Assembly: GCF_013044125.1 (NCBI RefSeq)
Contig: NZ_JABEVC010000154.1
Span: 1 to 32,419 of the forward strand
Origin: Acidocella sp.
Lineage (GTDB): Bacteria > Pseudomonadota > Alphaproteobacteria > Acetobacterales > Acetobacteraceae
DNA: 32,419 nucleotides
Direction of reading: 5' to 3'
Below are positions 23,420 to 27,640 of the stretch, one piece after another (position 1 is the stretch's first letter; each line of letters starts with the position of its first letter). The notes beneath the pieces are model-generated. The model worked only from the letters and a program-made list of their open reading frames with translations. It did not search any database and was not told the DNA's origin. The position numbers and the translations under genes were made by a program.

Positions 23420-24319
23420 ATGCCGCTTATCCCTTTTGACGATCGTGATGGATTCATCTGGTGGGAAGGCAAGCTGATTGCCTGGCGCGACGCGAAAATT
23501 CATGTGCTCAGCCATGGGCTGCACTACGCCTCCGCCGTGTTCGAGGGCGAGCGCGCCTACGCCGGCAACATCTTCAAGCTCCAGGCGCATACCGAGCGGC
23601 TGATCAACTCCGGCAAGATCCTGGGGTTTGATATTCCCTACACCGCCGATGAGATCAACAAGGCGTGCTACGAAATCATGGCCGCCAACAATCTGACCGA
23701 TGCCTACATCCGCCCCATCGCCTGGCGCGGCACGGAGCAGCTCGCCGTCTCCGCCCAGCACACCAAAATCCACCTCGCCATCGCCTGCTGGAACTGGCCC
23801 AATTTCTTGGGCGCTGACCGTCTCAAGGGTGTGACCCTGCAAACCGCCCATTGGCGCCGGCCGCACCCGCAAACCGCGCCCACCGCCTCAAAGGCGGCCG
23901 GGCTGTACATGATCGGCACGCTCTCCAAACACGCGGCCGAGGCCGCCGGCTTCACCGATGCGCTGATGCTCACCTGGGACGGTTTTCTGGCTGAATCCAC
24001 CGGGGCCAACATGTTCCTGGCCATTGACGGCAAGCTCCACACCCCGATCCCGGACTGCTTCCTTGACGGCATCACCCGCCGCACGATCATCGCGCTGGCC
24101 AAGGCCCGCGGCATTGAGGTCATCGAGCGCCACATTCCACCAGAGGACCTCGCCTTGGCGCAGGAGGTTTTCCTCGCCGGAACCGCCGCCGAGGTCACCG
24201 CGGTCCGCCAGATCGACGATCACCACTTCACCCCCGGCCAAATCACCGAAACCCTGCTGCACGACTACGAAGCCCTGGTTCTCATGGCGCCTGAGGAAGT
24301 CGCCAAGCGCGCCGCCTGA
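23420..24319 (+). CDS. ilvE: branched-chain amino-acid aminotransferase
   Basis: Fold-type IV PLP enzyme for the last step of Val, Leu and Ile synthesis. Landmarks in the 299 residues: the opening FDDRDGFIWWEGKLIAWRDAKIHVLSHGLHYASAVFEGERAY (residues 6-47, read in parts), IRPIAWRG, WRRPHPQTAPTASKAAGLYM with PLP-binding Lys158, DALMLTWDGFLAESTGANMF, and LDGITRRTII with the phosphate-binding G-I-T-R. The usual E-G/E-S-x-x-N motif reads ESTGANMF. Length is close to E. coli IlvE (309). D-amino-acid transaminase and aminodeoxychorismate lyase share the fold, but the W-x-R-P segment and FEGERAY favour IlvE. It converges on ppsR with a shared hairpin at the end. Confidence 0.94.
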   Translation: MPLIPFDDRDGFIWWEGKLIAWRDAKIHVLSHGLHYASAVFEGERAYAGNIFKLQAHTERLINSGKILGFDIPYTADEINKACYEIMAANNLTDAYIRPIAWRGTEQLAVSAQHTKIHLAIACWNWPNFLGADRLKGVTLQTAHWRRPHPQTAPTASKAAGLYMIGTLSKHAAEAAGFTDALMLTWDGFLAESTGANMFLAIDGKLHTPIPDCFLDGITRRTIIALAKARGIEVIERHIPPEDLALAQEVFLAGTAAEVTAVRQIDDHHFTPGQITETLLHDYEALVLMAPEEVAKRAA

Positions 24320-24335
24320 GTTAAATCCAAAAAGC

Positions 24336-24359
24336 AGAGGGCGATGACAATCGCCCTCT
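24336..24359. terminator. Terminator hairpin shared by ilvE and ppsR
   Basis: A perfect 10-base stem AGAGGGCGAT/ATCGCCCTCT with loop GACA. On the minus strand it is followed by GCTTTTTGG, so it is a good terminator for ppsR; the ppsR stop codon lies at its edge. On the plus strand only a weak T content follows. Confidence 0.8.
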
Positions 24360-25224
24360 ATTCGCCTTCTCCCGCCGGCTTGTCGTGCTTGGCGTGCCAG
24401 GCATCCATGAGCTTAAGCACCGTGGCCGCCGTTTCCTCGATGGAGCGGCGCGTTACATCGATGGTAGGCCAGCCCCGCGCGTTGCACAGCCGCCTGGCCC
24501 ATAGCAGCTCCTTTTCTACCGCTTCAAAATCCACATATTCGCCATTGTCCTTCTGGGCAAAGCCCGGCTGGGCCCCCGCGCCGATCAGGCGCAGGCGGTG
24601 GCGGCGAATATCAATCAGCGATTTCGGATCGATGGTCAGGCCGATCACCGGGCAGTTCGGCTCTTTCAGCAATTCCGGCGGCTCAATTCCCGGCACCAGC
24701 GGAATATTGGCGGCCTTGATGCCTCTGTTGGCGAGGTAGAAGCAGGTTGGCGTCTTGGACGAGCGGGACACGCCCACAAGCACGACATCCGCCTCCGCCA
24801 TGCCCCGGTGCGCCTGTCCGTCATCGTGCGAAATCACATAATGCATGGCGTCGATGCGGCGGAAATAATCCGCATCCAGCACATACTGGCGGCCTGGCTT
24901 ATGCTTCGCCGGGGCGCCGAACTGCCCCTGCAGCAGCTCCAGCAGCGGGTCCAGCACATGCAGCAGCGGCACGCCCAGGCGCGCGCAGGCCGCATCCAGC
25001 TCCTCGCGGAGCGCGGTATCCAGCAAAGAACACAATACCAGCCCCGGTTCGGCGTGAATGCCTTCCAGCACGCGGTGCAGCTGCAATCGTGAACGAATCA
25101 ACGACCAGCGATGGTAATTAACCTGGCTTTCATCAAACTGGGCTACGGCTGCCCTTGCCAGCGCACTTAATGTGTCGCCGGTCGCGTCGGATATCAGGTG
25201 TATATCGTGTTTATAACTTTCCAT
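24358..25224 (-). CDS. ppsR: pyruvate, phosphate dikinase / PEP synthase regulatory protein (DUF299)
   Basis: Bifunctional kinase/pyrophosphorylase of the DUF299 family that turns PEP synthase or pyruvate phosphate dikinase off by ADP-dependent phosphorylation and on by phosphorolysis. The 288 residues start with the family opening ([21 protein letters not shown]) and hold the nucleotide P-loop [10 protein letters not shown] (151-160), [24 protein letters not shown] and the C-terminal [15 protein letters not shown]. Length is normal. It is divergent from hemE across a gap with DnaA boxes, the same gene pair that borders the replication origin in several alphaproteobacteria. The start has no strong ribosome site. 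No PEP synthase gene is in view. A terminator hairpin overlaps its end. Confidence 0.95.
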
Positions 25225-25393
25225 GCCGCTGTTGATAGCGTGGATTGTTTTCCCGCGCGCGGAGAATTTTCCGGCGACCGGGGATAAAGTTACGAAACAG
25301 TAAACTGGGGATGCTTCCCAGGGGGTCCCCTACTCACTTGTGGGAAAACTAGCCCGATACGTTAGAATCAACAGCTTAAAGCTTGTATCTTGC

Positions 25394-25447
25394 TGTGGAT
25401 AACCTTGTGGACTTTATCCGTGCTTACCTTAACCCCCGCTATCCACA
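25394..25447. promoter_or_regulatory. Cluster of DnaA boxes
   Basis: Within 54 bases there are a perfect box on the minus strand (25394-25402), overlapping weaker boxes (25406-25414 minus, 25414-25422 plus), and a strong plus-strand box (25439-25447). The two strongest boxes face each other in opposite orientation. Confidence 0.75.
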
Positions 25448-25489
25448 GGGTACCACTGCCCCCCCCTTCGTTTAACTTAAAAGAGATAA

Positions 25490-25573
25490 AGAGGGTGGTT
25501 TTCCCCCTCTCACAGCCATCCCCGATTTTTCTCCGGGATGGGTTTTAGAACCCGCCATCTTGCTCTAAGCGGG
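25490..25573 (+). promoter_or_regulatory. Structured hemE leader with alternative pairings over the ribosome site
   Basis: Four possible stems: A, AGAGGG(t)GG/CCCCCTCT at 25490-25510; B, CCATCCC/GGGATGG at 25516-25541; C, GGGTT/AACCC at 25540-25553; D, CCCGC (25551-25555) with GCGGG (25569-25573), which covers the hemE Shine-Dalgarno. B and C share two bases; C and D share three. The arrangement could be a switch, but pairing by chance is possible in a GC-rich leader. Confidence 0.35.
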
Positions 25574-25577
25574 AGTT

Positions 25578-26600
25578 ATGAAATTACTGCATGTGTTGAA
25601 CAACGAGGCCATCTCGCCGCCGCCGGTGTGGCTGATGCGTCAGGCTGGGCGATACCTGCCTGAATACCGCGCCGTGCGCGGCCAGGCGGGAGACTTCATC
25701 TCGCTCTGCCTGAACCCGGAACTCGCCACCGAAGTCACCTTACAGCCCATCCGCCGTTATGGGTTCGACGCCGCGATCCTCTTTTCCGACATTCTCATCC
25801 TCCCCATGGCTCTAGGGCAGGGTCTGCGTTTTGCCGAAGGCGAGGGCCCGCTCCTGCCGCCGCTGCAAAACACCACCGGGCTGAACATTGCCGCCGCTCC
25901 AGACGTCTACGCGCCGGTGCTGGAGACCGTGCGGCGCGTCCGCGCAGCCCTGCCACCGGAAACCGCGCTGATCGGCTTTGCCGGCGGCCCGGCGACCGTG
26001 GCGTGCTACATGCTGGACGGCAAGGGCGGCGGCGAGTTCCCGCGCACCCGCGCATTGGCTTATGAAAATCCCGCCCTGGTGCAATCCGTTCTGGATATTC
26101 TGGCCGCCGCCACCATCACCTATCTGCAAGGCCAGATCACCGCCGGCGCCAATTGTGTTATGCTGTTTGAGAGCTGGGCCGGGATTTTCCCGGCGCCGCA
26201 ATTCCGCCAATTCGTCATCGAGCCGAACCGGCGCATCGTCGCCGCGCTTAAATCCGCCAATCCGGGCATAAAAATCATCGGCTTTCCCCGGCTATGCGGC
26301 TTGCTGCTGGGCGAATATGTGCGCGAAACAGGCGTGGACGCCGTTAGCCTGGACACGGTGACAGACCCCGCCGCCGCCATTGCCGCCTGCCCGCCGGGCA
26401 CGGTGTTTCAGGGCAATCTGGACCCGCTGCTGCTCAAATCCGGCGGCGCGGCGCTGGAGACCGGGGTTACACGGCTGCTGCAAGCCTTCCGCGGTATCCC
26501 CCATGTCTTTAATCTCGGCCATGGCATCACCCCGGAAGTGCCGCCGGAAAATATAGCGCGGCTGATGGAATTGATCCGCAACAACGCGATGCCTGCATGA
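25578..26600 (+). CDS. hemE: uroporphyrinogen decarboxylase HemE
   Basis: Removes four carboxyl groups from uroporphyrinogen III to give coproporphyrinogen III in heme synthesis. The 340-residue protein has the N-terminal signature PPVWLMRQAGRYLPEYR (residues 15-31), the active-site segment FDAAILFSDILILP with the catalytic Asp, GFAGGPATVACYMLDGKGG, VMLFESWAG and the C-terminal FNLGHGITPEVPPENI. Length is normal. The ribosome site GGGAG lies only two bases before the ATG, unusually close, and sits in a possible hairpin. The stop overlaps the hemH ATG (ATGA). It opens a heme operon hemE-hemH-HAD-hemJ running away from the likely replication origin. Confidence 0.97.
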   Translation: MKLLHVLNNEAISPPPVWLMRQAGRYLPEYRAVRGQAGDFISLCLNPELATEVTLQPIRRYGFDAAILFSDILILPMALGQGLRFAEGEGPLLPPLQNTTGLNIAAAPDVYAPVLETVRRVRAALPPETALIGFAGGPATVACYMLDGKGGGEFPRTRALAYENPALVQSVLDILAAATITYLQGQITAGANCVMLFESWAGIFPAPQFRQFVIEPNRRIVAALKSANPGIKIIGFPRLCGLLLGEYVRETGVDAVSLDTVTDPAAAIAACPPGTVFQGNLDPLLLKSGGAALETGVTRLLQAFRGIPHVFNLGHGITPEVPPENIARLMELIRNNAMPA

Positions 26601-27640
26601 AAACCGCCATCGTCCTGTTCAACCTTGGCGGACCCGACAGCCCGGCGGCGATAAAAAAATTCCGCGTCAATCTGTTTTCCGACAAAGCGATCATCCGCGC
26701 GCCGATTTTCATCCGCTTTTGGCTGGCCCGGCTCATCGCGCGTTCCTCAGCCAAGGCGGCGGAAAAAAACTACGCGCTCATGGGCGGAAAATCCCCCCTG
26801 CTGGCCACGACCCAGGCGCAGGCTGCCGCGCTGGAGAGCGCCATGGGGGGCGATACCAAAACCTTCATCGCGATGCGCTACTGGCACCCCTTCGCTCTGG
26901 AGGCCGCGCGCGCGGTGAAAGCCTATAATCCTGATCGCATTCTTCTCCTGCCGCTCTATCCGCAGTTTTCCACCACCACCACCGGCTCTTCGCTGAACAA
27001 TTGGCACGAGGCGGCGGCGCAGGCCGGGTTGATCAAGCCCACCACCACGCTTTGCTGCTATTTTGACGATCCGGCCTATGCCGGCGCCATCGCCGCGCTG
27101 GTGGATGCCGCCAGCGCCCAGGCCAAGGCCAGCCTGCCCCCCGGCGCGCGGCTGCGCCTGTTGTTCTCGGCGCACGGCCTGCCTGAATCCATCATCGCGC
27201 GGGGCGATCCGTATCAATCCCAGATTGAAGCCTCCGTCACTTCTGTCATGGCCCGGCTCAAGGACAGGCAAGTCGAACATCTGGTTTGCTACCAATCGCG
27301 CGCGACCCCGCAAAAATGGATCTCGCCCAGTACGATTGAAGCCATAGAACAGGCCGGGGCGGATAAAACCGCCGTACTGGTCATCCCCATCGCCTTCGTC
27401 TCCGACCATATCGAGACGCTGGTGGAGCTTGATATCGAAAACCGCGAGCTTGCCGCCCATTGCGGCGTCCCCGGTTATTTCCGCGCCCCCGTGCCCAATA
27501 GCGACCCCGCGTTCATCGCGGCGCTGGCCGGTCTCGCCCGCCGCGCGCTGGCTCATGGCAACGGCCTTTGTTCGCATCAGGGCGGCCGCGCCTGCGCCGC
27601 CACACATAAAAACTGCCCATGGACAAAATATGCGGCCTGA
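26597..27640 (+). CDS. hemH: ferrochelatase HemH
   Basis: Inserts ferrous iron into protoporphyrin IX, the last step of heme b synthesis; membrane-associated. The 347 residues include the opening VLFNLGGPDSPAAIKKFRVNLFSD, MRYWHPF, PLYPQFSTTTTGSS, LLFSAHGLPESIIARGDPY with the metal-binding His193, CYQSRATPQKWISPS, and PIAFVSDHIETLVELDIE with the acidic Glu273. The C-terminus is Cys-rich: Cys325, Cys333 and Cys340 in a basic tail. Some bacterial ferrochelatases, such as that of Caulobacter, carry a [2Fe-2S] cluster in this region, so a cluster is possible here but not shown. It overlaps hemE by four bases and the next gene by eleven. Confidence 0.96.
   Translation: MKTAIVLFNLGGPDSPAAIKKFRVNLFSDKAIIRAPIFIRFWLARLIARSSAKAAEKNYALMGGKSPLLATTQAQAAALESAMGGDTKTFIAMRYWHPFALEAARAVKAYNPDRILLLPLYPQFSTTTTGSSLNNWHEAAAQAGLIKPTTTLCCYFDDPAYAGAIAALVDAASAQAKASLPPGARLRLLFSAHGLPESIIARGDPYQSQIEASVTSVMARLKDRQVEHLVCYQSRATPQKWISPSTIEAIEQAGADKTAVLVIPIAFVSDHIETLVELDIENRELAAHCGVPGYFRAPVPNSDPAFIAALAGLARRALAHGNGLCSHQGGRACAATHKNCPWTKYAA

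Follow-up and report, generated by a model that had tools for sequence, protein, structure and literature searches.

A probable chromosomal replication origin in the intergenic gap between ppsR and hemE of Acidocella

The gap between the ppsR and hemE genes of an Acidocella draft genome raises the question of whether the chromosome begins to replicate there. The gap lies in the window, the whole 32,419-nucleotide stretch of DNA that was analyzed, which is contig C56 of a 2.68-Mb draft genome in 222 contigs. The preliminary description proposed a probable chromosomal origin at this position, and the proposal holds as the best reading on the grounds of box architecture, uniqueness of the box cluster, parAB genes in relatives, parS sites near hemE in family members, and the position of the skew minimum in genome G114. 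We consider it probable that the gap is the chromosomal replication origin (oriC); from architecture, uniqueness, and par context, it is the best candidate by far, although it is not proven.

Seven criteria (a to g), not all of them required, are described for alphaproteobacterial oriC regions flanked by hemE and COG1806 (PMC1914354), and several of these features are present here. The gap spans 353 bp (25225-25577), within the range of 200 to 1,000 bp given in PMC1914354, and has the divergent hemE/COG1806 boundary and the DnaA and IHF sites listed there. On the left it is bounded by ppsR (24358-25224, minus strand; COG1806/DUF299, PEP synthase regulator), which matches NF003742 at 308 bits (cut-off, 225), and on the right by hemE (25578-26600, plus strand; uroporphyrinogen decarboxylase), which matches TIGR01464 at 363 bits (cut-off, 303); both NCBIfam matches are above cut-off. 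The genes are divergent and point away from the gap, as was first reported. The gap is 51% GC, compared with 58 to 73% in 1-kb bins of the window, and its 49% AT against ∼35% in the window corresponds to the higher AT content described in PMC1914354. The ppsR gene is 98% identical to that of A. aquatica, the nearest named relatives are Acidocella species, and the neighbors beyond ppsR are ilvE and a two-component pair. An Rfam search of positions 24000 to 26700 gave nothing convincing, the one match having an E value of 0.68, far under its gathering score.

The layout of the gap is that of an ordinary bacterial origin, with weak boxes, an IHF site, strong boxes, and a putative unwinding element. 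The perfect and 8/9 DnaA boxes noted previously within 54 bases are TTATCCACA at 25394-25402 (minus strand) and CTATCCACA at 25439-25447 (plus strand), the latter within the conserved island TTAACCCCCG(T/C)TATCCACAGGGTAC. This pair contains the only boxes in the gap with no more than one mismatch, of which there are six in the whole 32.4-kb window, and the two boxes do face each other, as an inverted pair with the TTAT ends inward. The further weaker boxes are also present, as three two-mismatch boxes starting at 25230, 25279, and 25339; the second of these (TTATCCCCG, 25279-25287, minus strand) is in a conserved island, and the third (TTTCCCACA, 25339-25347, minus strand) has a perfect or 8/9 box as its positional counterpart in a number of relatives. 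There are two additional degenerate boxes: CAATCCACG (25239-25247, minus strand), in an island (AGCGTGGATT) that is nearly invariant in 33 Acidocella gaps and with several Acidocella gaps reading TTATCCACG at the box position, and AAGTCCACA (25406-25414, minus strand), which is 12 bp from the perfect box and has the genus consensus AAATCCACA. The match to the IHF consensus WATCAAN4TTR is confirmed at 25366-25378 (AATCAACAGCTTA, plus strand), is one of two in the window, and is located between the weak boxes and the strong boxes. The AT-rich blocks of the preliminary description are likewise there, and the least stable 30 bp of the gap (25471-25501) is a candidate DNA-unwinding element, but the softest 40 bp of the gap is surpassed in instability at six other places in the window.

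This arrangement was compared across 33 distinct Acidocella gaps, 25 gaps from other genera of the family, and six from other families of the class, with duplicates dropped and locus L023 (with its copy, L055) left out of the set as its matches fall short of the gene starts. Twenty-five of the Acidocella gaps come from same-genus genomes and eight were assigned by ppsR identity (81 to 95%), and the other-genus gaps are not a random sample, as 24 were taken as the top hemE matches from beyond the genus (one being L057) and the remaining one is from G114. Both ppsR and hemE flank all of the 33 Acidocella and 25 other-genus gaps, which were chosen for having the pair or as best hemE matches; in eight of eight Acetobacter loci (L059 to L066), no hemE was found within the 10 kb examined around ppsR. 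The conserved islands of the 33 Acidocella gaps (25234-25246, 25277-25287, ∼25306-25313, 25338-25347, 25390-25402, 25405-25414, and 25429-25452) coincide with the boxes, and conservation among close relatives, another of the features described in PMC1914354, is thus evident. A perfect box is present in 32/33 Acidocella, 13/25 other-genus, and 2/6 other-family gaps, and an inverted pair spaced 43 to 45 nt in 32/33, 8/25 (13/25 when up to two mismatches are allowed), and 0/6, respectively. The IHF motif in its WATCARN4TTR form occurs somewhere in the gap in 23/33 Acidocella, 3/25 other genera, and 0/6 other families, and the least stable 30 bp starts 15 to 45 nt past the plus-strand box in 28/32 Acidocella and 11/13 other-genus gaps. 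TTAA-N7-TTAA CtrA sites are absent from all 33 Acidocella and all 25 other-genus gaps and present in one of the six from other families. With no CtrA consensus in the gap of the window, even with one mismatch, Caulobacter-type CtrA repression at the origin is therefore not expected. For the CtrA protein, the best match in the genome of the window to NF045991, a model named as a Rhodobacter form, scores 217 bits against a cut-off of 350.

Gap length varies by clade, at 353 to 362 bp in six genomes forming the clade of the window and 279 to 283 bp in the other 27 of the 33 Acidocella. The ∼70 extra bases lie within 25490-25577, between the unwinding block and hemE, and contain three predicted hairpins (single-strand fold z score of −2.97, with 1 of 200 shuffles as good).

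The box cluster is also unusual within the genome. There are 14 perfect boxes in the genome of the window, and a survey of the sequence stretches around all of these shows that only the one in the gap has a box with no more than one mismatch within 240 bp, the next closest such pair being 241 bp apart; as far as surveyed around perfect boxes, the gap thus has more sites than other intergenic regions, a further criterion described in PMC1914354. The pattern TGTGGATAA-N(20-45)-TATCCACA is found in 29 of 38 Acidocella genomes, at one place in each, with no occurrences of a control pattern; at least 19 of the 29 places adjoin ppsR or hemE coordinates. In six of six Acidocella contig stretches (32 to 200 kb), the gap is the top box cluster.

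The par genes and sites are consistent with an origin nearby. On the ppsR side there is a mnmG-rsmG-parA-parB group, whose parB is no more than 10 kb from the gap in 12 of the 19 Acidocella loci having at least 9.5 kb of flank on that side, and no parB within 10 kb in the other seven (L032, L033, L034, L036, L046, L055, and the window). Among loci with shorter flanks, parB is present in L050 and parA in L043 and L054. The distance from gap to parB is 43 kb in G009, the A. aquatica genome that contains L033, and 7 kb in G114, and in the genome of the window parAB is on another contig, C24, where a lone perfect DnaA box is located ∼35 bp downstream of parB (L245 4273-4281, G000 C24). Of 29 family genomes searched for parS with no more than one mismatch, all 19 that have one have it within 100 kb of hemE; G114, G230, G055, G141, and G146 have additional sites more than 100 kb away or on another contig. 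Canonical parS, at the same threshold, is absent from eight of eight Acidocella genomes (G000, G002, G007, G009, G010, G012, G016, and G210) and from G217 and G088. The parS-less Acidocella genomes that were examined do contain parB, and in a search of six genomes allowing two mismatches, TGCTTCACGTGAAGCA was found at a single place in G007, at a distance of 7 kb from the gap, and at eight scattered places in G009.

Strand composition is a real contrary result. A skew minimum at the gap was suggested as a check on the origin, and because the draft is in 222 contigs, skew was taken locally and sampled in relatives. Locally, the expectation fails in the window, which shows no GC skew switch at the gap (−0.109 on the left and −0.143 on the right), and in most Acidocella; only three Acidocella loci have their minimum at the gap (L041, −0.1 kb; L042, +0.1 kb; and L045 of G016, +0.4 kb). 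It lies −3.7 to −5.3 kb from the gap in L038, L049 (G010), L053, L054, and L056, and is displaced in the other direction in L039 (+4.7 kb), L048 (+8.5 kb), G007 (+16 kb), and G002 (+35 kb). A. aquatica (G009) has a terminus-like plus-to-minus change at the gap and its minimum at −36 kb, and in the other Acidocella loci surveyed the minimum is at the hemE-side end of the analyzed flank. The skew shift that PMC1914354 describes falls on the gap in those three loci, lies no more than 2.3 kb from it in G114, and is displaced or absent elsewhere.

Outside the genus, the sampled pattern of G114 is clean. Skew of this genome, which is in one contig, stays positive up to 1.26 Mb in the samples and is negative from 1.38 Mb onward to the record end, and the minimum (in 40 kb across the record ends) is at base 301, 2.3 kb from the gap at ∼2613-2997; dnaA is 188 kb from the gap, on the positive arm. 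In G149 the skew changes sign around the record ends, which is also where hemE is located, whereas the turn in G057 falls in the interval from 1.67 to 1.855 Mb and hemE is at 1.875 Mb; in the stretches read, ppsR is not beside hemE in either genome. The skew of G215 is a mosaic that changes sign many times over 20 sampled stretches of 20 kb each and 4 more, and it is positive throughout the 10 kb on either side of the gap (∼3.071 Mb), with parS at 3.007 Mb and a minus-to-plus change between 3.007 and 3.06 Mb. Skew is weak in G204, where there is no more than a suggestive sign change near 2.72 Mb.

A bidirectional origin between ppsR and hemE is expected to leave both genes with positive coding-strand skew. 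The coding-strand GC3 skew of the two genes is instead opposite in 29 of 33 Acidocella (13 one way and 16 the other), both positive in three, and both negative in one, as if a single fork crossed both genes. In other genera it is opposite in 14 of 25 (both positive in seven, both negative in three, and with a zero in one), and in other families in two of six (both positive in one and both negative in three). This polarity of the core differs between close relatives, such as L002 (+0.13, −0.12) and L006 (−0.26, +0.31), whose ppsR proteins are 97% identical. Gene order is heavily shuffled around the ppsR-hemE-hemH-HAD-hemJ core, and skew moves with inverted blocks, as with murI-mreC, which is inverted in G002 with its skew reversed. 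A murI-plsC block that sits to the left of ppsR in the window occupies +23 to +45 kb in A. aquatica (G009), and part of it is inverted in G002. Rearrangement as the cause of the missing switch would cover the mosaics of the flanks but not the opposite polarity of ppsR and hemE, and was rejected because an inversion that keeps both genes beside the origin cannot give them opposite polarity.

These displaced minima and the opposite, relative-to-relative polarity of the core are what favor the strongest alternative, that forks diverge some kilobases from the gap in most Acidocella, and that the array is either an origin-side regulatory element that titrates or reloads DnaA or an origin whose forks start elsewhere. 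Other origins at the displaced minima were sought and rejected: in G007, the intergenic region beside aat has no box with one mismatch or fewer and a single two-mismatch box, and at the G010 minimum (mnmG-rplT, a gap covered by the scan of the whole stretch for boxes with no more than one mismatch) there are only one perfect and one near box inside mnmG, with the ppsR-hemE gap still the top cluster. Further points against this explanation, which we regard as quite unlikely, are that the easily melted block is conserved next to the boxes, that many loci have parAB near the gap, and that the minimum is at the gap in three loci. A related proposal, that Acidocella fork divergence is decoupled from the conserved array, is unlikely as well; here the array would keep its place between ppsR and hemE and the strand-composition switch would move, by group, to ∼4 kb on one side, 5 to 35 kb on the other, or onto the array itself, with one fork crossing both genes in a direction that flips between close species.

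A second alternative is that the boxes serve in the control of the hemE and/or ppsR promoters by DnaA and that the origin is elsewhere, for example at dnaA. Box pairs do occur at gene starts: G016 (L264 1001-1034) and G210 (L265 2070-2103) each have two perfect DnaA boxes 25 bp apart overlapping the start of a gene that we take from its protein sequence to be uvrC-like, beside a presumed folB-like gene. These, and a pair of perfect boxes 114 bp apart in G007, look like promoter sites. G007 also has a perfect box ∼0.6 kb upstream of a DnaA domain match, oriC of Acetobacter pasteurianus 386B is placed near dnaA (PMC3751514), and PMC4403523 lists bacteria in which dnaA and hemE each mark a putative origin. 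However, dnaA in the genome of the window has one box with no more than one mismatch in the surrounding 11.4 kb, including the 1.0 kb upstream to the contig end, and dnaA is 0.19 to 1.3 Mb from hemE in G114, G204, G057, G149, G153, and G215 (in G088, dnaA could be close to hemE). With parS clustering with hemE, and with an ordered array, IHF site, and melting block that promoter control does not need, this explanation is very improbable.

A chance cluster of boxes in an ordinary divergent promoter gap has a negligible probability, as one perfect and one 8/9 box would alone be a modest signal, but the arrangement is conserved in 32 of 33 gaps and a perfect box with a second box (one mismatch or fewer) within 45 bp arose in none of 300 first-order Markov resamplings of the window. 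When the gap itself was resampled 20,000 times, a perfect box appeared 30 times, a perfect box with another 3 times, and an IHF match 187 times. Random 350-bp segments drawn from the retrieved loci (n = 19,942; those containing the middle of a gap were excluded and partial overlaps kept) had two TATCCACA in 12 cases, a perfect box in 48, and a WATCAR-form IHF match in 201. Chance therefore falls far short of accounting for the box pair, and an IHF match by itself would be expected about 1% of the time.

If the gap is the origin, then from general knowledge of bacterial oriC, DnaA would fill the array starting from the strong boxes and IHF would bend the DNA, bringing in the outer weak boxes. 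The complex would then melt 25471-25501, where the helicase would be loaded and two forks launched. The likely Acidocella origin is thereby placed at hemE/ppsR and not at dnaA, as probably is that of other Acetobacteraceae keeping the gene pair. The defined order of boxes can be footprinted and is usable for replicating vectors or for coverage-based estimates of growth rate, and the failure of the strand-composition switch to coincide with a conserved DnaA array poses a concrete and testable puzzle as to how far GC skew should be trusted near an origin.

The use of hemE as an alphaproteobacterial origin marker is established (PMC1914354, PMC4741004, PMC2275245), and among the literature matches listed, no description of an Acidocella or Acidiphilium origin at hemE was recognized. 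Within the same family, the dnaA-proximal oriC of A. pasteurianus 386B is an in silico prediction (PMC3751514), and another Acetobacter paper gives an origin position in a passage where hemE is not mentioned (PMC13209655). A hemE-adjacent origin is predicted for Sphingopyxis granuli and other Sphingomonadaceae on the basis of the same conserved gene cluster (PMC4741004), although these belong to another family. The predicted origins of Rickettsia, Wolbachia, Ehrlichia, and Anaplasma share the hemE boundary, DnaA and IHF sites, and AT richness, and differ from the gap in other box layouts and, in most, CtrA sites (PMC1914354). Cori of Caulobacter crescentus shares the hemE and COG1806/ppsR boundaries, DnaA boxes, one IHF site, and an AT-rich block, but is cited as longer than 400 bp and has five CtrA sites (PMC1914354), whereas the Acidocella gap is shorter and lacks the TTAA-N7-TTAA motif. 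The ilvE gene and two-component pair beyond ppsR in the window also contrast with C. crescentus. The gap thus most likely belongs to the already known class of alphaproteobacterial origins flanked by hemE and ppsR, to which Acidocella is newly added.
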